IMG/VR virus record: IMGVR_UViG_3300020183_000039
Span: 22,570 to 86,569 of that record
DNA: 64,000 nucleotides
Origin: a virus
Strand: one strand, 5' to 3'
Positions 19,385 to 64,000 of the stretch are shown one piece after another. The position numbers and the translations under genes are program-made. Below the pieces are notes generated by a model that saw nothing but the letters and a program-made list of their open reading frames with translations, was not told the origin of the DNA and searched no databases. Every line of letters begins with the position of its first letter. Position 1 is the stretch's first letter.

Positions 19385-22300
19385 TCAGGTAGCCGAGATG
19401 CCGGATGCCTCGAGAGCGGCCGGGATGCCACCGATACCGACGCGGACCAGATCCACCTCGATGCGCTCGAGGGTGGGAACTGGCACCACGAACACCTTCA
19501 CGTTCACGTAGCCATTCTCCAGAGCACCGCCGAGGTTGTTCCGCTCGTCGCAGACCACCTGGTAGGCTTCGGAAGGAGTAGCACCGAACAGAGCACCGGG
19601 CACGTAGAAGAACTCGTACAGGGTGTTGTCGGCGATGGCACGGATCTGGTTGAAGGTCACGGCGCGACCGTCGATCACGCTGAAGATCTGGCCATCGAAG
19701 GCCTGACGCAGCGTGCCGTAGATCACGTTGAGGATCACACGAGTGTTCACGAACTGGTACAGGGCCTGTTCGGAATTGCCACGGTTCACGCGAGTACGGG
19801 AACCCCAGACAAACACGGGGCCGAACACCTCACCGGTGTCTGCATCTACCGTGCTGTAGCCAGGCAGCTGACGCAGGGCATTGAGGCCTTGCGGGTTGCT
19901 GATCTCCTGCTGAGCGTTGGTGATGGCGATCTCGCAACCACGTGCTCCGGCCAAGTTGTACTTCGCACCAGCGGGAGGCAGGCGGAAGCCAGCGGCGGAA
20001 TCGCGGTAGCGGCGAATTGCCAGGCCAGTGACGAACGAAGAGGGCTGGATGAAGAGACCAACGTCGTTCTTGATGTATGGAGCGTAGTAGGCCAGGAAGC
20101 CCTGAGTCGTGCTGTAGGAGGTGGCCTCGTTGAGCAGTCGAGCGTGGTTGTTGATACCAGCTTCGATGACCCGCATCTGAGGAGTGCCGCCGTTGTTCAC
20201 GCCACGCAGAGCCTCGTTCACCAGATCACCAGCGGTGATGGCGTCGAAGTTCCACAGGTTGTTGGGGACGTCAACTTCAGGCTCGAGGAACTCGATGTCC
20301 ACGTAGCCGCCGTACAGGGTGGTGTAGCCTTGGCCGATCTGAAGCACGGGATGAGCATACACGCCGGTAGCCGAGGTGTTGGCCTGATCACCATAGCTTA
20401 GAGGCACGCAGTAGAAGTTGTTCTCGCCAGCGAAGTCCTGAGCAGGGTTGAGAGGACGAGCAAAGTCGTCTTCGGTGTACTGCCAGGTGTAGGGGTTGGA
20501 GATGCTCGTCACGAGGAACTCCACACCGCCAGCGTTGTTCACACCAGCGCTGATGATGTCGATCTCTGTACCAGCAACCGCGTCTGCGGCGGTCTCGGCG
20601 AACTGGATGGTGTTGGGGTCGACCACGATCACGAAGTAGATCCCCGTATCTTCCAGACCACCGGCCAGAGTGGCGTTGGTAGCGGTGTTGACGCTCACCT
20701 CGTCGCCGGTCAGGTAACCGTGAGAAGCGATGGTCACCTCATTGGTCACCACGTCCACGTCAGCGGCTGCGACCTGCCAGACAGGAACGCCAACCGGAGC
20801 AGAACCGTAGGACAGGCGCAGGTCGGTGCTGATGTCAGCGGTGTAGGCAACGCCGTAAGGGTCGTTCACACCGTTCTGGATGGCAACGTTAGCCTCGTCG
20901 CGCACGCCGGCCACCGCGAGAGTCACGTCCAGCTGGTACTTGCGGCCACGGATGTAGCGCAGCACGCCGGAGTCACTGAACTGGCCGCCGTCCACTGCAG
21001 TCGAGAGCTTCTTGTAGAAGCGACGAGCAGCTGTGGTGATGATCGCGGAAGTTGGGAAGTCAGCGAAGGCGTTAGAAGCCAGGTCGGAAGCCGAACGAGC
21101 GAGACGGAAGAAGTTCCGGTCCACCTTCTGAGCGAAGTACACAGTGGTGGAGGTCGGGGTCGTGCCGCGGAAGATCGTCTCGGTGGCGGTCACAATGCTG
21201 CCATCGAAGTACAGCTTGTCAGCGGTAACAACGGGGTGCTCGGAGGAGAACACCATGCAGTCGCGGCCGGTCGTCAGAATAGACTGAGCGGGAGCGCCCT
21301 GAGGGTTCAGCACAGTGGCAGAGTCGGTACCAGCGCCGGGGATGGAGATGTTCGTACCGGAGTTGGCATTGGCCAGCGAGGTGGCCAGCTGGATCGTGTT
21401 ATCGTCGATCCGGATAACAAAGTACTGCGTGCCGGACGTCAGGTTAGTCGGGCTAGCAGCGCCGTCAGAAGGCAGCAGGTAGTAATTGATCGCGTCGCCG
21501 GTGCTATAACCGTGACCGATAACCGTGATCTCGTCGGTGCCAGTGTTGACGTCGGAAGCATTGAAGTACTTCAGAGTCAGGCCGCCGCTCAGGATTGCCA
21601 GAGAGGGGTCAGACAGCTGACGGACCAGACCCTTATAGTCGTGCTGGGTCGTAGGCTTCTGCAGGGTGCCGGGCAGGTGCAGAGTGTTGAAGGACACGGT
21701 GTTCACGCCACCGTTGGCCTCCAGCAGGCTCGAGATCTTGCCCTTGATCTCTACGTTGAACTCCCAAGCAGGAGTGGAATAGTAGAGAACCAGCATGCCA
21801 CCGCCTTGAGGGGTGCCAGCGGTGGTGAAGTTCACGGCTTCGTTGATAGAAGCGCGAGAAGTGCTGGTAGCCAGGCGGATCTGGTTAGGAGCCAGAGTGT
21901 TGTCGATGTCGCTCGCGATCACATAGAACGAACCGAGAAGGGGCTCGTTAGTGATGCCGGTAGCGGTATCGCTGTAGAGAGGAGCGGTGGGCAGCGGATC
22001 GTTCTCGAACAGCTCCACGCTCACGATGGTGCCGGAAGGCAGGGCATCCACGGGCCACTCTTCGGCCAGAGTCATCACGTCAGTCGCCGTGTTCAGACCG
22101 ACATCCACGCGGATGCGCTGGTCGTCCTTCATGGCAAGACGCTCACCGTCGTTCAGAGCGACGTTAGCCGAGTTAGCGGCGTTGGTGGCGTCGTAGTTGG
22201 CGGACGTGAAGAGCAGAGGAGTCGTATCGGTCCACTCGTAGATCACGTTGTCCACGAGATACAGCTCGCCGGGCTCGAAGCCGTTGGAGGGATTCGCGGG

Positions 22301-23302
22301 CGTGAAGTCGCGGTAGATCACGATGTCCGTCACGTTGAACGGACCGCAGTCCACCAGAGCCATCCACTTGTGGTTCTGATCGGAGCAAACCTCTTCCATC
22401 GTCTGGCCGAGGTTCACGCGGCTTGACTTACCGAACTTGCGGAAAGCCGGAGGAGCGATCATGTAGCCCTGGGGCAGGCGAGGCTCTTCGAAAGCGGTGC
22501 GAACGCACTGGATGTAGTCGAAGACAGTCTCGTCGCTCTCGGTGACGTTGGCGATTGCGTAGCCAGCGGCAGCAAGGATGTACAGGGAACCAACGATCTC
22601 GTTGGAGTTCACCACCTCGACAGGTGCGTTGAACACGCGGCCGGTCAGGTAGAGGTATGCGCACTCATCGCAACCAGCGGTACCAACACCTTCCTGGCGG
22701 ACGTACACGCCAGCGGTGATGTCGCTATTAGCGTTGATCGCGTCGGACACCGCATCGCGGATGGCCTCAGAGATCTTGACGTTGTTCGTCAGGTCACCGG
22801 ACACGTAGTCCACGGGGATCTCGACGGGAACACCCAGCCACACGCCGGAAGAGTTCTTCACGCCGAGAGGGATGCCGTTGATCTCCAGCTTGATGTAGAC
22901 GCGATCGCCTGTCTGGAGAGGGCTAGGAGCGGTGACGCCGTTGTCCTTGTTGGCCGACGGATCGAAGGCCACCTGGACGATATTGGAGGGAGTACCAACG
23001 CGCACAACGCGGAGGTCGCCCACAGTGCACTGCTGGAAGAAGGCCTTCACAGCATAGTACGAGTCGAGTTCGGCACGGCCTTCGGAAGGCGCGCCACCGA
23101 TCAGGTTCTCATACTCGTTCAGGCTGCCCACAAAGATGGGGCGGTTGAACGGGAAGACGGCCACGGAAGCGGATTGAGGGGCCTCAACCAGCATGTAGAC
23201 CGTGTTGAAGCTAGCTACCGAGGCGCGAGAAGCAATCGCGGACTCGTAGATGAAAGTACCCGGAGCACCGCCACGGGCGCCACCAAGCGAGATAGTAGCC
23301 AT
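19385..23302 (-). CDS. Contractile tail sheath protein, giant (1305 aa)
   Basis: The ends identify it. The N-terminus GGAPGTFIYESAIASRAS with FVGS and DSYYAVKAFF matches sheath handles. The C-terminal 250 residues (GPVFVWGSRT, NVIYGTLRQAFDGQIFSVIDG, DNTLYEFFYVPG) match the sheath core that polymerises around the tube. The middle is greatly expanded compared with T4 gp18 (about 660) or Mu (about 500). Two copies of an approximately 75-residue domain, near residues 585-665 and 850-925, share 'HGYxTGD' then 'YFVIxxDxNTIQxA'. Such domains occur in phage fibre and surface proteins and probably decorate the sheath exterior. A leader hairpin precedes the gene. Confidence 0.85.
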   Translation of the reverse strand: MATISLGGARGGAPGTFIYESAIASRASVASFNTVYMLVEAPQSASVAVFPFNRPIFVGSLNEYENLIGGAPSEGRAELDSYYAVKAFFQQCTVGDLRVVRVGTPSNIVQVAFDPSANKDNGVTAPSPLQTGDRVYIKLEINGIPLGVKNSSGVWLGVPVEIPVDYVSGDLTNNVKISEAIRDAVSDAINANSDITAGVYVRQEGVGTAGCDECAYLYLTGRVFNAPVEVVNSNEIVGSLYILAAAGYAIANVTESDETVFDYIQCVRTAFEEPRLPQGYMIAPPAFRKFGKSSRVNLGQTMEEVCSDQNHKWMALVDCGPFNVTDIVIYRDFTPANPSNGFEPGELYLVDNVIYEWTDTTPLLFTSANYDATNAANSANVALNDGERLAMKDDQRIRVDVGLNTATDVMTLAEEWPVDALPSGTIVSVELFENDPLPTAPLYSDTATGITNEPLLGSFYVIASDIDNTLAPNQIRLATSTSRASINEAVNFTTAGTPQGGGMLVLYYSTPAWEFNVEIKGKISSLLEANGGVNTVSFNTLHLPGTLQKPTTQHDYKGLVRQLSDPSLAILSGGLTLKYFNASDVNTGTDEITVIGHGYSTGDAINYYLLPSDGAASPTNLTSGTQYFVIRIDDNTIQLATSLANANSGTNISIPGAGTDSATVLNPQGAPAQSILTTGRDCMVFSSEHPVVTADKLYFDGSIVTATETIFRGTTPTSTTVYFAQKVDRNFFRLARSASDLASNAFADFPTSAIITTAARRFYKKLSTAVDGGQFSDSGVLRYIRGRKYQLDVTLAVAGVRDEANVAIQNGVNDPYGVAYTADISTDLRLSYGSAPVGVPVWQVAAADVDVVTNEVTIASHGYLTGDEVSVNTATNATLAGGLEDTGIYFVIVVDPNTIQFAETAADAVAGTEIDIISAGVNNAGGVEFLVTSISNPYTWQYTEDDFARPLNPAQDFAGENNFYCVPLSYGDQANTSATGVYAHPVLQIGQGYTTLYGGYVDIEFLEPEVDVPNNLWNFDAITAGDLVNEALRGVNNGGTPQMRVIEAGINNHARLLNEATSYSTTQGFLAYYAPYIKNDVGLFIQPSSFVTGLAIRRYRDSAAGFRLPPAGAKYNLAGARGCEIAITNAQQEISNPQGLNALRQLPGYSTVDADTGEVFGPVFVWGSRTRVNRGNSEQALYQFVNTRVILNVIYGTLRQAFDGQIFSVIDGRAVTFNQIRAIADNTLYEFFYVPGALFGATPSEAYQVVCDERNNLGGALENGYVNVKVFVVPVPTLERIEVDLVRVGIGGIPAALEASGISAT

Positions 23303-25064: not shown

Positions 25065-25072
25065 TTTTACCC
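25065..25072 (-). promoter_or_regulatory. Late-promoter-like element GGGTAAAA
   Basis: CTAGGGTAAAAAG lies 31 nt before the chaperone start; the stop of the preceding gene (TAG) touches it. It would open the structural block. Confidence 0.6.
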
Positions 25073-25962
25073 TAGTTCACACTGACCTTGATGGCCGGGT
25101 GCGGGTTGTAATCGTGGAGCTCAAGATCATCAATCGTGAGACTTTTCGGGTTCAGCCGTTTCAACCACTCAGCGGACAAGGCCATGTTGCACTCGTCGCG
25201 ATGCGGGAGCAAGATCATGTCCCTGACGGTATCATAGCAGTTCTTGTAGATGTGCGAATTGGCACTTGGCATGTAGACATACCGAGCGGTCTTACCAGTG
25301 GCTGCCGCTACGACCTTCAGGATGATCGAGTAGCGCGCGATATCGAGCGGGAAGCCCACGACCATGTCGTTGGACCGAGCGGGAACCATGACGTCGAGCC
25401 AGTTGTCCTTGGCGGGACTGAACTGCATCGCGATGTGGCACGGAGGGCATGCGGGATTGACAGCTGTCGGGTTGTGCGTGATAATCGTAGCCTGCCTGGA
25501 GTTCGGGCTTTCGATAAGCCGAACGATCACGTCGAGAAACTGGTCGACAGAACGGTCGGTGACGAGAGTCTCGTTGGGCATCTCCATTCCAGGAGCAGAC
25601 GGCGGCCACTGTCGCCACTGGCGGCAATACGCGGACGCGCCGAGTTCTCCGTTCTCGTCGGCAAGGAAGTCCCAGAAGTGCTTGGCGGGACCGAGAGCCT
25701 CGACATTGGTGCTGAACCCAATGTCGAACAGGAACTCGCGGCAGATGTTCTTCCAGGGAAGCTTCCGAAGGCGGGTGAGAGGGAAACCGACTCGCAAGTC
25801 GGCCCGAACAGAACAGCCGAAAGCGGAACGGGTCTCCCCGTTGCGGCCCTCAAAAATATCCCCATGATCCAGAAGCAGTTCCAGGTACTGCGAGTAGATC
25901 GAATCCCAATTGGACGAAAGAAGGGCTCGGTCTTCGAAGTTCAGAACGTGACCGCGGGTCAT
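25072..25962 (-). CDS. Thymidylate-synthase-family dCMP (hydroxy)methylase candidate
   Basis: This 296-residue protein has the thymidylate synthase fold: Glu76 (CREFLF), ENGELGASAYCRQWRQW near 103-119, Arg156, catalytic Cys175 in PPCHIAMQF, RSND at 196-199, His237 and Tyr239 in SHIYKN, and the C-terminal DYNPHPAIK. The residue that binds the pyrimidine O4/N3 (Asn177 in E. coli, in PFNIA) is here Asp207 in PLDIA. In known enzymes Asp at this place selects dCMP (T4 gp42 hydroxymethylase; engineered N-to-D synthases). It therefore probably makes 5-methyl- or 5-hydroxymethyl-dCMP rather than dTMP. A dNMP kinase lies two genes upstream with overlapping starts. The specificity is inferred from this single residue plus RSND and GF context. 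Confidence 0.75.
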   Translation of the reverse strand: MTRGHVLNFEDRALLSSNWDSIYSQYLELLLDHGDIFEGRNGETRSAFGCSVRADLRVGFPLTRLRKLPWKNICREFLFDIGFSTNVEALGPAKHFWDFLADENGELGASAYCRQWRQWPPSAPGMEMPNETLVTDRSVDQFLDVIVRLIESPNSRQATIITHNPTAVNPACPPCHIAMQFSPAKDNWLDVMVPARSNDMVVGFPLDIARYSIILKVVAAATGKTARYVYMPSANSHIYKNCYDTVRDMILLPHRDECNMALSAEWLKRLNPKSLTIDDLELHDYNPHPAIKVSVN

Positions 25963-26168
25963 ACTCCTCCGTAGATTTTCTTGTTGGTTTTCTCGTAGAG
26001 TTCTTCGAACTCAGGGCTATTGTAGCCCTGCGGCATCTGCACGTAGATCTGAGCGGCTGATCTCAGACTCTCGGCGGCTTGAGACCTGTGGCCCATGTCC
26101 CACCGATCGTTGGCGTCATGGAGCCAATCCATAGCGTACGCTAGCATAGCGTCCGGGTCTCTCATCAT
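25959..26168 (-). CDS. Hypothetical small helical protein between nucleotide enzymes
   Basis: This protein has 69 residues starting MMRDPDAML; the ATG at 26168 overlaps the kinase stop, and its own TGA overlaps the next ATG. The predicted helices (LAYAMDWLHDANDRW, QAAESLRSAAQIYVQM) look TPR-like. Its place between kinase and methylase suggests translation with them. No family recognised. Confidence 0.6.
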   Translation of the reverse strand: MMRDPDAMLAYAMDWLHDANDRWDMGHRSQAAESLRSAAQIYVQMPQGYNSPEFEELYEKTNKKIYGGV

Positions 26169-26782
26169 TGGGAACGGCATGTGCGTTTGAGAGCTTGAAG
26201 GCAAAGAGCCAGTGCGGCTCGAGCGTTTGTCTGCTTATCGTGAAGCTGTACGTTGGGGAACATCGTGATGTTCTCGTAGAAGTTCAGCAGTTGCTGGGTG
26301 TACAGCTCGTGCTCCTGCATCCGCGCGATGTACTCGTCGCGGATGAACCAGGGAGAAGCGTCTGGGAAGAGCTCTCGAAGTTCTTGCACATGGAGAGGAG
26401 CCGACCAGTGCCAGGGGCGGAGAACCGCGAGGTGAACCACGTTCTCGACCTGATCCGCTAGCTCGATCTCGAAGTCGATAACGTCTTCAAAGTGGCCAGC
26501 GTTGTGCCGGCGATGCTGCTCTAAAATGTAGCTGCAGGGATAGGCCCGATCGAAGATCGCGTGGGTCTCTCGAAGGCCCCACTTGGCGATGTCTTCGCGG
26601 TAGAAATCGAAGATGTTTTTCTGGTTGCTCGGCGGCGGGCCGTGGTGTGCCACGTAGCAATCGCCATCGAGTTCCTTCATCATGGCATCGATCAGAGTAG
26701 ACTTGCCGACGCGGTCCGGGCCAGAGACGATGATGAGCATGTTGGGATTCTTCACGGTTCCATTATAGCGGTCGGTTGGCAT
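26165..26782 (-). CDS. dNMP/thymidylate-type kinase
   Basis: This 205-residue protein has the Walker A motif GPDRVGKST near residues 21-29, close to the G-x-D-G-x-GKST loop of thymidylate kinases. A DR-x-Y/P region (IFDRAYPCSYILEQHRR) near 76-92 is like the DRY motif of TMP and phage deoxynucleoside kinases. It would phosphorylate a dNMP to the diphosphate. Next to the dCMP-(hydroxy)methylase-like gene, the modified dCMP is the obvious candidate substrate (compare T4 gp1 beside gp42). Start at 26782; a second ATG at 26742 just before the loop is possible, since a TATAAT lies between the two. Confidence 0.65.
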   Translation of the reverse strand: MPTDRYNGTVKNPNMLIIVSGPDRVGKSTLIDAMMKELDGDCYVAHHGPPPSNQKNIFDFYREDIAKWGLRETHAIFDRAYPCSYILEQHRRHNAGHFEDVIDFEIELADQVENVVHLAVLRPWHWSAPLHVQELRELFPDASPWFIRDEYIARMQEHELYTQQLLNFYENITMFPNVQLHDKQTNARAALALCLQALKRTCRSQ

Positions 26783-26995: not shown

Positions 26996-27139
26996 TTAGA
27001 TAAGGTGGGACGGGGTACATCGTACTTTGTCCAGAAGTAGTCGTTTCATCGGGTCCTGGTCAATCTCCGCAAGATTGCAGGCCTGAACCAGGTTGCATCG
27101 TCCTCGGTACAGGGCATCGAGGGCTCGTTCTAATTTCAT
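26996..27139 (-). CDS. Hypothetical 47-residue protein coupled to DNA polymerase
   Basis: Its ATG at 27139 overlaps the polymerase TGA (ATGA), a coupling used throughout this genome. The sequence begins MKLERALDALYRGRCNLVQA and looks helical with two Cys. A longer frame upstream inside the polymerase is not supported. Function unknown. Confidence 0.5.
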   Translation of the reverse strand: MKLERALDALYRGRCNLVQACNLAEIDQDPMKRLLLDKVRCTPSHLI

Positions 27140-30036
27140 CAAAGCAGTCCTCGCTGCACCATAGAGTACCTTGTCTCGAGCTTCTTCACCCAGCCGAGCT
27201 CGGCCATCTGCTTCATCGAGAACTCCTCGCCATCTGGCTCGTCGTCCCACTGGGACGGGGTCTTGGTGCTCTCGTGGACAGACTTGCGGAGCCGGTCGTC
27301 GATCGCCACGGAGGAGAAGAACGCTCGGCTCAGGGGCACGTCGCACATGCCGACGCCCGCTTGGAACCTCGCCCACGAGTACAGGTGGGCCATCTGGAAC
27401 GCCACCGAGAAAGCTTCAGCCTGCTTCTCGGGGACCATGAACCACGTCTCGTCGTGGATCGACAGGATGAACTGCGCGGAGATCTTGAACCGACGAGCCA
27501 GCCAGTGGGACGCCGTCAGGATCACAGCGAGCATCTCGGCGCCGGAGGACTGGATGGTCCAGTTGATGCGGCCGGTGTGGAAGTCGTCGCCAACAGCCGC
27601 TGGGCGAAGCGCTGTGGAGATCTTCGTTCCGAGACAGGGGAGCTGCGGCACCTTAGTTCGAAGTGCGATGCCCTCCATGTAGTTGTAGCAGCCGCTGTCG
27701 CTGCCGCCCTCGTAGTAGCCATCCGGGCTCTTCTGGCCCTTCTTGAAGGCCAAAGCTCGGTTACCATACTGGCGAAGCTCGTTTGTGCCGCGGTCCTTGA
27801 ACTTTTTCTGGATCGTCCCGGCGATGGTCCGGACCCCTGCGCCATAGAGCATAGCGAAACCGACACCCTTGGCCGTGTCGCGGTCGATGTTGATCGCCTT
27901 AGCGAGCTTGGTGTGAGCATCGGTGCCCTTCTCTTTTGAGCCGGAAAGCACCGTGTGCGCCATCGGAGATGCCCCGATGAACCCGCCCTCCCAAGCGTCC
28001 GCATAGATGCTGGCGATCTGAAGCTCCTGGCCGTCGAAGTCAGCCCCGACGATTTTCCAGCCCGGCGGACATTGGATCCTGGACTTCAGCTCGGTGCCGA
28101 TGCGATGGGACTTCGTGGAGCACATGGTGACCATCAACGACTCGACAGTTCGCCGAGTCACGGTCCCATGAGCGATGATCTCGGGCATCATCATGTTCCA
28201 GTGGTTGCCATACGGGTTGTCAACCTCCAGGAAGATGCGGTCCATGACACGCTTGCGCACAGACGTCCAGTAAGAGGCGGCATTCGCGATCTCCAGAGCG
28301 CGCTTAGCGTCTGGCAATTCGCTGCTAAGCCGCCCTACTTCCATGTCCATGGTAAAGTCTTTCGACAGCAGTTGGCCCACGTTATTGCCATTGCCCTTGG
28401 GATGAGGGATCCGCTGGACCTTGCCGTCCTCGTCTGTGAAGCACCAGCCAAGCTCTTTGGTGTTGATCACCGGGCTGCCCTCCCACTTGAGCTTGAGGAG
28501 CAGATTGGAAAGCTTTGACTTAGTGGTGATTCTCTCGTCAGGGCTAGTGAGAAGCTCGGAGGCCCACTTCGGCTTGAATGCGTACTTGCCGGTGTAACCA
28601 CGAGGAGTCCAGCTGAGCTGTGAGAGCCACGGGTCAGCGGCTACCCAGGCGTCGGAGTTGTGCCTCCAGGCATGACCCTGCTTATCGAAGCCACGAAGAA
28701 CGTCAGTGAACTTCACGGTCTTCTTGCCGCCAAGGCCAGCCAGAGCGATAGCGGTCTCAGGGTCCGTATCGAAGAGCTTCTGCGCCTCGAGAAGATCCTT
28801 ATCAAACTCCTTGTTCCACTCGGCGACGTACCGCTCGACCAGCTTGTGGCAGATGTCGGTCATCTCGCGGTTGTGGTTCTCGAAGACCTTCTCGACCTGC
28901 GCGATCCACTTGGTCCAGTCGGTCGAGACAGGAATGCGCGAGCCATTGAGGAAGTAGTGGCCGGCAAGCCCGACCTTCGAGGGAGTAGCGTCGAGGTACT
29001 TCGGCCAGAGAGCTTGGAACAACTCGGTGGTGTAGAACGCGTCTTTCATCGCGTAGTCGAGTAGGTCGCGCCGCTGAGCCAACTGGTGGATCTCCGTCGC
29101 CTTCACGAAGACGTCTCGGATCTCTTTGTCGGCGTCCCGCATGCGGTGGACCTCCTTGCCGAAATACTCTCGAACCGCCGCAACGTGGAAGTTGTAGACG
29201 TTGACCAGAGCGTTGGTCGAGCCTTCGTCGGCCCAGCGCGGGCGGAAGCGGAGCTTCTTCTTCTCCTCTTCGGTCAGATCCTCTGGGTCCTTGCCCGAGA
29301 GCACGTAGAGCCAGCGTTGCCCTGATGCCAGGCCAGACACGGCGATGTGCGCCGAGAGCGTGTCGAAGTAGAAGTTCTCGGGCTCAGTTCGCTCCAGAGT
29401 GTAGCCATCGCGAGCGCGCACTCGGTCGTAGGAGATGTTGTGGCCGACCACGAAGTTGTCGTCACCGAGCGGGATGAGCCCGTACTGAGTCCACTTGTCA
29501 TGCGGAATGAGCGGATCGCACATCTCAGCGGCCAGCCAGACATACGCTGCTTCAGACGAAAGGCAGGTGCCGATGACCGGAAAGGCTCCGTTGACCACGA
29601 AGGTCTCGGTATCGTACGTGAAGGCGCTCTCAAGCGGGTGAGGCACCGACTCAGTCACCCAGTTGTTGCCCTGCTTGGTGTAGCGGGTCCAGCCAGGTTG
29701 GAACACGAAGTCGTCGTAGCTTGGAACAGCTGGAAGACTGGCTTGAGAGAACTCATTCGCTAGCTCGATGTAGCGATCAACAAATTCCCCGGCCATGAGT
29801 TCGAAGTGCCCTTCGATGCCATCGCCCTGCAGTTCCGGAAAGGGCAGGTCTCCGTCGTAGAGATTGTCCGGGTAGTCTACCGGGACAGGGATCTCGAACC
29901 TACTAAGAAGCCGCCTCGACCGTTCGAGCGTGGAGCTCTTGGGCGCGGGGCGGCTTGCGGAACCGAAGAGCTTTTTGTGGAGGTCACCCTCGAGTACAGG
30001 ATAGCCTTGCTCGTTCAGCTTCATAGACGTTGCCAT
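27139..30036 (-). CDS. Family A DNA polymerase, polymerase-gamma-like
   Basis: This 965-residue replicative polymerase has an N-terminal 3'-5' exonuclease with the D-x-E motif at about 142-144 (YDTETF). The polymerase core has motif A GADFDGQELQIAS near 664, motif B RDTAKGVGFAMLYGAG near 725, and motif C HDE near 860. The stretch 'DxQEL...GCTAxxW/GASP...GTD.H...R..AK....YGAG' follows mitochondrial polymerase gamma more closely than T7 or Pol I. This polymerase type is reported from a minority of marine cyanomyoviruses. A strong TATAAT promoter lies upstream. It would replicate the phage genome with the separate 5'-3' exonuclease (55725-56636) and ligase. Confidence 0.85.
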   Translation of the reverse strand: MATSMKLNEQGYPVLEGDLHKKLFGSASRPAPKSSTLERSRRLLSRFEIPVPVDYPDNLYDGDLPFPELQGDGIEGHFELMAGEFVDRYIELANEFSQASLPAVPSYDDFVFQPGWTRYTKQGNNWVTESVPHPLESAFTYDTETFVVNGAFPVIGTCLSSEAAYVWLAAEMCDPLIPHDKWTQYGLIPLGDDNFVVGHNISYDRVRARDGYTLERTEPENFYFDTLSAHIAVSGLASGQRWLYVLSGKDPEDLTEEEKKKLRFRPRWADEGSTNALVNVYNFHVAAVREYFGKEVHRMRDADKEIRDVFVKATEIHQLAQRRDLLDYAMKDAFYTTELFQALWPKYLDATPSKVGLAGHYFLNGSRIPVSTDWTKWIAQVEKVFENHNREMTDICHKLVERYVAEWNKEFDKDLLEAQKLFDTDPETAIALAGLGGKKTVKFTDVLRGFDKQGHAWRHNSDAWVAADPWLSQLSWTPRGYTGKYAFKPKWASELLTSPDERITTKSKLSNLLLKLKWEGSPVINTKELGWCFTDEDGKVQRIPHPKGNGNNVGQLLSKDFTMDMEVGRLSSELPDAKRALEIANAASYWTSVRKRVMDRIFLEVDNPYGNHWNMMMPEIIAHGTVTRRTVESLMVTMCSTKSHRIGTELKSRIQCPPGWKIVGADFDGQELQIASIYADAWEGGFIGASPMAHTVLSGSKEKGTDAHTKLAKAINIDRDTAKGVGFAMLYGAGVRTIAGTIQKKFKDRGTNELRQYGNRALAFKKGQKSPDGYYEGGSDSGCYNYMEGIALRTKVPQLPCLGTKISTALRPAAVGDDFHTGRINWTIQSSGAEMLAVILTASHWLARRFKISAQFILSIHDETWFMVPEKQAEAFSVAFQMAHLYSWARFQAGVGMCDVPLSRAFFSSVAIDDRLRKSVHESTKTPSQWDDEPDGEEFSMKQMAELGWVKKLETRYSMVQRGLL

Positions 30037-31705: not shown

Positions 31706-32311
31706 TTATGCTACCAAGGACGCCCCGGTAGATTTAGATTCCAAGCCGCAACCTCTATCGCTTCGCGTCGACAAAGCCCCTGCTGACGAGCTACGCGGTA
31801 ACGGGTCTCGTACTGCCTCTCTTTTCCTAAGCTTCTGGCTGTCTCCCAGAACGCTCGGCAACGGTTGTCCAATTCGCCATCCATGGCGGTGGTACCTGAC
31901 AAGAAAGCCTTTGAGGGCTCCGTCGTTGACCTCGTCGGGAAGTGGCCTGTGCCCCTTAACGAAAATCCTCCACGAGTCGAAGGCGTATTGCCCACAACCG
32001 TAGAGGCTTCGGGGATCTTTTCGATCCCATTCAATGTACTGCTCCGACATCTTTCTGAGCCGCTTGGCCTTGACGTTCGAGAAACCGTGAGGCTTCAGTA
32101 GTTCCTCAAGCGAGGAATCTGAAGACGCGAGCTCTGCGGCGATCGGCCATCTTTCGAACAAACTTTCTAAGCAGATGTCCCAGGCCTCTGTCCTGCGGCT
32201 CTGATTTAGCAGGATGGCTGAGACAAGGATGTGCCATTCGGTCGGGAGAGACTCTTGGATGAGCCACTCTCTTGCGTAGGAACTCGAGAGGGGCGGGTTG
32301 GTTTCCGACAT
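31706..32311 (-). CDS. HhH-GPD DNA glycosylase, MBD4-like
   Basis: This protein follows the MBD4/TDG-like thymine glycosylase domain: ILVSAILLNQSRRTEAWDICLESLF near 28-50, LLKPHGFSNVKAKRLRKMS near 70-90, then the helix-hairpin-helix and catalytic segment LYGCGQYAFDSWRIF near 103-117. The Asp in FDSWRIF is the expected catalytic residue (GKYGNDSYRIF in human MBD4). These enzymes remove T or U from G:T and G:U mismatches that arise when 5-methylcytosine or cytosine deaminates. The core ends near residue 145; the last ~55 residues run in a frame that overlaps a better-looking small gene, so the C-terminus is uncertain. Confidence 0.75.
   Translation of the reverse strand: MSETNPPLSSSYAREWLIQESLPTEWHILVSAILLNQSRRTEAWDICLESLFERWPIAAELASSDSSLEELLKPHGFSNVKAKRLRKMSEQYIEWDRKDPRSLYGCGQYAFDSWRIFVKGHRPLPDEVNDGALKGFLVRYHRHGWRIGQPLPSVLGDSQKLRKREAVRDPLPRSSSAGALSTRSDRGCGLESKSTGASLVA
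31711..31884 (-). CDS. Overlapping 57-residue basic protein (or frameshifted glycosylase end)
   Basis: In the +1 frame relative to the glycosylase an ATG at 31884 opens MDGELDNRCRAFWETARS and runs 57 codons. Its residue choice is more protein-like than the glycosylase tail it overlaps, and 'ELDNRCRAFWE' even resembles the C-terminal helix of MBD4. It is either a separate gene or the true glycosylase end after a frame change. Confidence 0.4.
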   Translation of the reverse strand: MDGELDNRCRAFWETARSLGKERQYETRYRVARQQGLCRREAIEVAAWNLNLPGRPW

Positions 32312-32326
32312 CGAATTTGCTTCGTT

Positions 32327-32890
32327 TCACTTCACGCGTCGTACTGATGCTTTGAGCTGGTCCGCGTTGAGGTCTACCACTTCGACCCTGAAATCGAAAA
32401 GCTTCTCGGGATCCGAGAGGAGGTGGAACTGGCCGGAGAAGCAGTCGTTCTCTGAGTCGCGGAGGAACTCGTTAGCGGGAGTCGGAGGCTCGCAGAGCGC
32501 GATGTCTCCAGCAACCTCGGGAGCGGCCTCCTCGATCGCGCGGATCAGGCGAGCGTTGATCGTCGAGGTGATCGCGAACTCTTCCTCAGTCTTGATCGAG
32601 GAGTAGTATTGCTCGTCCTCACTTGGGTGAAGCTCGATGGCATTGCCATTCTGGAGGATCACCTGGACCACCCGCTCGTCCTCGGGCTTCAATCGAAAGC
32701 ACACCTCGGGAGATCCGAACTCGGCATCTTCCTCGCAGTCCGCTTCGAGAATGCGAATCTCGATCAGGTCGTAGAAGGCGCCAGCAAGAGTCTCCCAGTC
32801 CGGACCATCAAGGATCTTGGCGATAGCCATGAAGATCTTCGGGTTGGCCAGCAGTCGCTCCGTGGGGTAGATGATCTGCGTTGTATCCAT
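32327..32890 (-). CDS. Hypothetical acidic protein
   Basis: This protein has 187 residues from ATG 32890 (MDTTQIIYPTE). An in-frame GTG at 32911 would lie only 7 nt after the GGTAAAA element, while 32890 gives the usual 28 nt. Acidic, helix-rich, with a proline turn ALCEPPTPANEF near 140. No family recognised. It is an isolated gene in the middle of early-type genes that carries a late-type element. Confidence 0.6.
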   Translation of the reverse strand: MDTTQIIYPTERLLANPKIFMAIAKILDGPDWETLAGAFYDLIEIRILEADCEEDAEFGSPEVCFRLKPEDERVVQVILQNGNAIELHPSEDEQYYSSIKTEEEFAITSTINARLIRAIEEAAPEVAGDIALCEPPTPANEFLRDSENDCFSGQFHLLSDPEKLFDFRVEVVDLNADQLKASVRRVK

Positions 32891-32918
32891 GAACTCCACA
32901 GGAGGCTTCACGGATTGA

Positions 32919-38651: not shown

Positions 38652-38686
38652 GTTGATCTCTCGGCCTGAGGGATCTTACCTCGAAA

Positions 38687-38757
38687 GCCTTCGACTGGAT
38701 TTGAACCAGCGACCTGCTGTTTACGAAACAGCTGCACTACCACTGTGCTACGAAGGC
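38687..38757 (-). tRNA. tRNA-Thr (anticodon CGT)
   Basis: A 7-bp acceptor stem GCCTTCG/CGAAGGC, anticodon arm GCTGT-TTCGTAA-ACAGC with anticodon CGT, and T-loop TTCAAAT all fold correctly over 71 nt. CCA is not encoded. It reads ACG codons, frequent in this GC-rich genome. Confidence 0.9.
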
Positions 38758-38899
38758 GAAGGCCCCGTTTAACACGTGAGACGCCTCAAGGGCGCACAGA
38801 GGTGGGGGCACGAGCGGGGGAGGCCATCCCCCCGACCTACCGAAGTAGGATTTAGTGCCACCGGCATTCCGGTTTATCTTTCCGGCGCAAAGTGGCAAC
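38758..38899 (-). other. Structured spacer between two tRNA genes
   Basis: No gene fits here. On the minus strand it contains several stems: CCGG-9nt-CCGG, CCTAC-TTCG-GTAGG, and GGGGGA-TGGCC-TCCCCC. It lacks a T-loop motif, so it is not a third tRNA that I can recognise. It may be a small RNA or processing structure transcribed with the tRNAs. Confidence 0.4.
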
Positions 38900-38970
38900 T
38901 GGCGTGGCAGGGCTCGAACCTGCGGCCAGCCGATTAACAGTCGGCGGCTCTACCACTGAGCTACACGCCA
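38900..38970 (-). tRNA. tRNA-Asn (anticodon GTT)
   Basis: Acceptor TGGCGTG/CACGCCA, D-arm GCTC...GAGC, anticodon arm GCCGA-CTGTTAA-TCGGC with GTT, and T-arm GCAGG-TTCGAGC-CCTGC give a complete 71-nt tRNA. CCA is not encoded beyond the paired A. Confidence 0.92.
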
Positions 38971-38972
38971 AT

Positions 38973-63708: not shown

Positions 63709-64000
<292 letters not shown>

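Follow-up and report, generated by a model that had tools for sequence, protein, structure and literature searches.

A cyanophage thymidylate synthase relative predicted to act on dCMP, and its MBD4-like glycosylase companion

The locus and its genes

The window, that is, the whole stretch of 64,000 nucleotides that was analysed, covers positions 22,570 to 86,569 of the IMG/VR virus record IMGVR_UViG_3300020183_000039 (record length 86,569 bases) and contains a relative of thymidylate synthase (TS) in the company of genes for a kinase, a DNA polymerase and a DNA glycosylase (Table 1). Reading of the open reading frames bears out the extent that the original prediction gave to the TS relative and places the gene on the minus strand; its start codon overlaps the stop codon of the small upstream ORF (ATGA) and is preceded by a GGAGGAG stretch. 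The kinase gene lies two genes upstream.

Table 1. Features of the window and the codons discussed in the text.
Feature	Positions	Strand	Remarks
TS-fold enzyme, Asp replacing Asn177, predicted dCMP methylase (or hydroxymethylase)	25072..25962	-	296 aa
Asp207 codon (E. coli TS Asn177 position, T4 gp42 Asp179)	25342..25344	-	pyrimidine specificity (PMC6400193, PMC8670742)
Catalytic Cys175 codon (E. coli Cys146)	25438..25440	-	
Cys172 codon (E. coli Leu143, T4 gp42 Asp145)	25447..25449	-	clade-specific C-P-P-C-H motif; lacks the T4 hydroxymethylase signature (PMC6400193)
Small conserved ORF	25959..26204	-	no assigned function; between kinase and TS
P-loop kinase, thymidylate-kinase/PPK2/YorR type, predicted modified-dCMP kinase	26165..26782	-	
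PolG-like family A DNA polymerase	27139..30036	-	would have to incorporate modified dCTP
MBD4-like HhH-GPD DNA glycosylase, conserved catalytic Asp	31706..32311	-	predicted G:T / G:hmU mismatch repair
Orphan protein adjoining the glycosylase	32327..32911	-	unmatched in Pfam, PHROGs and among PDB folds; conserved across window clade
psbA (D1), C-terminal end, cut by record end	63709..64000	-	cyanophage marker

The window phage is a cyanophage, since it carries the end of psbA and a PolG-like polymerase related to those of cyanophages (49% identity to Synechococcus phage S-CBWM1 and 37% to S-TIM5); on these genes, its host is a cyanobacterium. The window also contains a tRNA-Thr and a tRNA-Asn gene (38686-38757 and 38898-38971, minus strand), and an Asn-Thr tRNA pair is likewise present in S-TIM5 (L018). 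The tail sheath protein (19385-23302, minus strand) is very long, at 1305 residues, with insertions that look like members of baseplate and fibre families.

Active-site residues of the TS relative

The Pfam Thymidylat_synt profile (E 5e-50) covers almost the entire protein; this whole-fold match and the presence of the catalytic cysteine place it in the thymidylate synthase superfamily PF00303. A residue check of the protein gives E76, W97, Y112, R156, C175, H176, R196, D199, D207, H237 and Y239. The E. coli TS sequence used in the alignment conforms to the published numbering in length (264) and at residues 58, 80, 94, 143, 146, 147 and 177. Asp207, in the motif RSNDMVVGFPLDIARY, occupies the position of Asn177 of E. 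coli TS and of Asp179 of T4 gp42, so that the Asn of dUMP-specific ThyA enzymes is replaced. The key motifs are RSND, MVVGF and PLDIARY in the window protein, RSCD, VFLGL and PFNIASY in E. coli TS, and RSND, VVFGF and RNDYAWQ in T4 gp42; the residue alignment thus confirms the original prediction of a catalytic Cys175 and an Asn-to-Asp switch (PLDIA where dUMP-specific enzymes have PFNIA), with RSND and GF as in gp42. In comparison with canonical ThyA (E. coli TS and the Asn-type TS of phages), the window enzyme retains the fold, the catalytic Cys, His147, Trp80 and a near-complete tail, but differs in the changes of Asn177 to Asp, Leu143 to Cys, Trp83 to Leu, Gln165 to Ala and Arg127 to Gln.

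A distinct clade of Asp-type enzymes

Relatives collected from IMG/VR, by scans with the window protein and with an alignment, fall into two groups, a window clade at 57-82% identity and an S-TIM5 clade at 36-39%. All 33 members placed in the tree, the ThyA of S-TIM5 among them, have their catalytic Cys within C-P-[PG]-C-H and carry an Asp at position 177. In an unrooted maximum-likelihood tree they form one clade (support 100/99) beside the Asn-type TS, separate from the Xp12-like N-V-P-C-P clade and from the T4 gp42-like D-x-x-C-T sequences, and of the named phage TS that do not belong to it, the nine nearest ones examined all have Leu143, His147 and Asn177. Sequencing error was rejected as a source of the Asp, which is invariant in these 33 members and in the fragment L006, at identities ranging down to about 36%. 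An independent origin of the Asp is not claimed, as a single Asn/Asp change fits the unrooted tree.

A cultured counterpart is the ThyA of cyanophage S-TIM5 (Aurunvirus), which shares the C-P-P-C-H clade, the Asp, the kinase and a related PolG-like polymerase, but which is only 36% identical and whose kinase gene does not adjoin the TS gene. The expectation, voiced with the original prediction, that such an enzyme would be foreign to a cyanophage ThyA did not hold, since S-TIM5 and its relatives already carry Asp-type ThyA.

The companion kinase and other neighbours

The product of the kinase gene has a P-loop NMP-kinase fold (AlphaFold model, pLDDT 82.5), with Foldseek matches to PPK2, B. subtilis YorR and thymidylate kinase, and is a putative kinase for 5-methyl- or hydroxymethyl-dCMP. 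A dNMP-kinase-like gene is present in 25 of the 26 records of the C-P-P-C-H class (the exception being a 49-kb record) and within 10 kb of none of 80 Asn-type TS loci. Two records of the window clade, G002 and G042, contain a second dNMP-kinase-like copy with one TGA inside when read.

No dCTPase, MazG or glycosyltransferase was recognised among the 41 small ORFs of the window by Pfam or PHROGs. The orphan protein next to the glycosylase was considered as a dCTPase; it was modelled with a pLDDT of 83.7, yet found no fold match in the PDB. A C5-methyltransferase-like gene is carried by S-TIM5, S-TIM54 and the window-clade record G006, which would be odd if every cytosine were already 5-modified; cytosine replacement may therefore be partial. 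In S-TIM5, this C5-cytosine-methyltransferase-like gene (L007, 4409-5626, minus strand) lies near the Asp-type ThyA.

The MBD4-like glycosylase

The 15 best PDB matches of the glycosylase are all MBD4 (E 3e-12), and homologues match MBD4 as well (L005, 6e-15; AXL1 gp65, 1e-13). Tyr109, Asp112 and Asp130 are invariant over 19 phage MBD4-like members, and Asp130 aligns, via AXL1 gp65, with the Asp of the PEDHKL segment of MBD4, the catalytic Asp of that enzyme. By its best matches and this conserved residue, the protein belongs with MBD4; like the human and mouse G:T mismatch glycosylase, it has an HhH-GPD fold by sequence and the conserved Tyr and Asp, but it is viral, carries an extra C-terminal stretch and consists of the glycosylase region only, no N-terminal methyl-CpG-binding domain being found in it. 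A role of the HhH-GPD protein as a transferase in base hypermodification (the aGPT-Pplase idea) was considered and dropped, the 15 best PDB matches all being MBD4.

AXL1 gp65 (L021, 18327-18809, minus strand) has been described as lacking a canonical active site, that of EndoIII (PMC9206674), but the Asp aligned with that of MBD4 is present. The MBD4-type conservation offers another reading of this protein than the absence of a canonical active site.

Three queries of 50,697 phage records led, between them, to the same five phages, AXL1, DoCa6, YB23, Donnerlittchen and S-TIM54, and the TS is of the Asp type in all five MBD4-like-bearing isolates, including AXL1, whose TS has Asp at 177. Xp12, whose DNA contains 5-methylcytosine in place of cytosine, is reported to carry a homologue of AXL1 gp65 (PMC9206674). 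In IMG/VR, 24 contigs with an MBD4-like gene were found, and each of the 18 that also encode a TS has the Asp type (4 C-P-P-C-H, 10 D-x-x-C-T and 4 N-V-P-C-P), a set that includes some near copies, was drawn partly with queries chosen from such phages and represents about four independent lineages. As a control, an MBD4-like gene lay within 10 kb of the TS in one of 80 Asn-type loci and in none of 80 gp42-like loci. The one Asn-type case, on the 36-kb contig L192 (about 2174 and 9991, both on the plus strand), has a glycosylase resembling that of S-TIM54. The contigs behind L033-L045, several of them over 150 kb, carry MBD4-like genes; among them are ten with a T4-like (D-x-x-C-T) Asp-type TS, and ThyX is found on some.

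Within the C-P-P-C-H class the glycosylase gene is patchy and thus accessory: it is present in S-TIM54 but absent from S-TIM5 and from most records of the S-TIM5 clade, and some of the window clade lacks it too.

Substrate: dCMP or dUMP

That the substrate of the window enzyme is dCMP, not dUMP, is well supported by several lines of comparative evidence: the invariant Asp, the ThyX genes of relatives, the companion kinase, and the tie between Asp177 and cytosine-modified contigs. N177D mutations turn TS into a dCMP methylase, and no other positions are as strongly associated with contigs of modified cytosine as 177 and 147 (PMC8670742). ThyX is encoded in 11 of the 26 class records, including the complete genomes of S-TIM5 and S-TIM54 and the window-clade records G029 and G030, so that dTMP would be made by another route in these phages; it was not found in the window phage's own record, which is possibly incomplete. 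A dUMP methylase of the ordinary kind, making dTMP in spite of the Asp, would agree with the retention of the TS fold, of the tail and of the His147 and Trp80 positions; we consider it improbable, given an Asp that is invariant throughout a deep clade, a ThyX gene beside the TS in relatives and the known preference for dCMP that the Asn-to-Asp change brings (PMC8670742). It is more improbable still that the phage makes 5-methyl-dCMP as an indirect route to dTMP by way of dCMP deaminase, leaving the cytosine of the DNA unmodified: S-TIM5 and S-TIM54 do encode a dCMP deaminase, but their genomes encode ThyX too, no dCMP deaminase was found in the window record, and the MBD4-like gene would be left unexplained. 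Of the dCMP (hydroxy)methylase originally proposed, the switch to dCMP thus stands, whereas the residues do not support hydroxymethylation in the manner of T4, in view of Cys172, the kept tail and a position outside the gp42 clade, Ser110-x-Tyr112 being the only match to T4 at the sites concerned.

Product: 5-methyl- or 5-hydroxymethyl-dCMP

In T4 dCMP hydroxymethylase (dCH), Asp145, together with Ser94 and Tyr96, activates a water molecule, even the D145N change kills the enzyme, and the C-terminal tail, which in TS keeps water out, is missing (PMC6400193). The window enzyme resembles T4 gp42 in its Asp at 177, RSND, GF and the Ser-x-Tyr before the active site (Ser110-Ala-Tyr112 for Ser94/Tyr96, conserved in the window clade; Gly-Ala-Tyr in S-TIM5), but is only 24% identical to it, lies in another clade of the tree, and has neither Asp145 nor Thr149. 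No Asp or Glu stands three residues before its catalytic Cys, the acidic residue expected of the T4 type (PMC6400193), the position being taken by Cys172. Its tail, ending in HPAIKVSVN, is kept, although in the window clade the C-terminal end is one residue shorter than in E. coli TS; a [KR]-x-x-[VL] end is shared by the Xp12-like and C-P-P-C-H classes and absent from the T4-like sequences aligned. The Xp12/AXL1-type dCMP methylases (Bosavirus and relatives), represented here by AXL1, DLP4, YB23, DoCa6 and Donnerlittchen in place of Xp12 (MT664984), share with the window enzyme the Asp at 177, a [KR]-x-x-V tail and an MBD4-like gene nearby; they differ in their N-V-P-C-P motif, which the window enzyme lacks, in forming a separate clade, and in an operon with pyrophosphohydrolase, dCMP deaminase and DHFR.

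With Asp145 absent and the water-sealing tail kept, 5-methyl-dCMP appears distinctly likelier as the product than 5-hydroxymethyl-dCMP, two of three markers (the residue at position 143, Ser-x-Tyr and the tail) agreeing on reduction. A dCMP hydroxymethylase, in which the methylene intermediate takes up water and 5-hydroxymethylcytosine enters the DNA as in T4 before glucosylation, is unlikely but has points in its favour: the Ser-x-Tyr pair equals that of T4, the last tail residue is missing in the window clade, 10 of the 18 MBD4-bearing contigs have a T4-like hydroxymethylase-type TS, and DHFR, which hydroxymethylation does not require, was sought without success in 19 records of the class as well as in both complete genomes (S-TIM5 and S-TIM54). 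This last point was dropped as proof of hydroxymethylation, as the cyanobacterial control genome, that of Synechococcus elongatus, carries DHFR. Cys172 sits at the very site where D145N is fatal to T4 dCH (PMC6400193), His176 is kept where T4 has Thr, the enzyme stands outside the D-x-x-C-T group with its tail kept, and no glycosyltransferase was recognised in the window, all of which argue against hydration.

Proposed mechanism

In the pathway that we infer for the window phage, Asp207 would pair with cytosine and protonate N3, Cys175 would attack C6 and methylenetetrahydrofolate would supply the carbon; the fate of the intermediate would then most likely be reduction to 5-methyl-dCMP, as for Xp12, and not the hydration seen in T4, because the enzyme keeps its tail and has no acid to activate water. 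The companion P-loop kinase would raise 5-methyl-dCMP to the diphosphate, the phage polymerase would build the modified nucleotide into DNA as a protection against host restriction, and the MBD4-like glycosylase would remove the T (or hmU) left opposite G after deamination of modified cytosine. Modified cytosine in the virion DNA is plausible, and the MBD4-like companion adds to this. As a whole, the reading of the window gene as a dCMP-specific member of the TS fold in a psbA-bearing cyanophage, which makes 5-methyl-dCMP through Asp207 and Cys175 and works with kinase, polymerase and glycosylase repair, is one that we regard as fairly probable from the sequence evidence, which directly gives the residues, the clade, the neighbouring genes and the psbA fragment. 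Counting against it are the lack of a recognised dCTPase or MazG in the window, the absence of DHFR from the class records, the T4-like Ser-x-Tyr and shortened end of the window-clade enzymes, the C5-methyltransferase-like genes of S-TIM5, S-TIM54 and G006, and an MBD4-like gene that many class members lack and that occurs once beside an Asn-type TS.

Significance

5-modified cytosine made by TS relatives is known from the T-even and Xp12 phages. More tentatively, and with somewhat less than even confidence, the dCMP-modifying enzymes may comprise a third lineage, in cyanophages, that replaces cytosine with 5-methylcytosine (or 5-hydroxymethylcytosine), and in modified-cytosine phages an MBD4-like glycosylase that repairs deamination of the modified base may repeatedly have joined these enzymes, a viral counterpart of the maintenance of 5-methylcytosine in vertebrates. 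If true, the distinct cyanophage clade would be a new dCMP-modifying lineage with S-TIM5 and S-TIM54 as cultured members, and, through the MBD4-like companion, phage repair of deaminated methylcytosine would become known for the first time, no earlier report having been found in the literature searched. C5-modified DNA in these phages would affect both their resistance to restriction and the methylation-sensitive reading of metagenomes.
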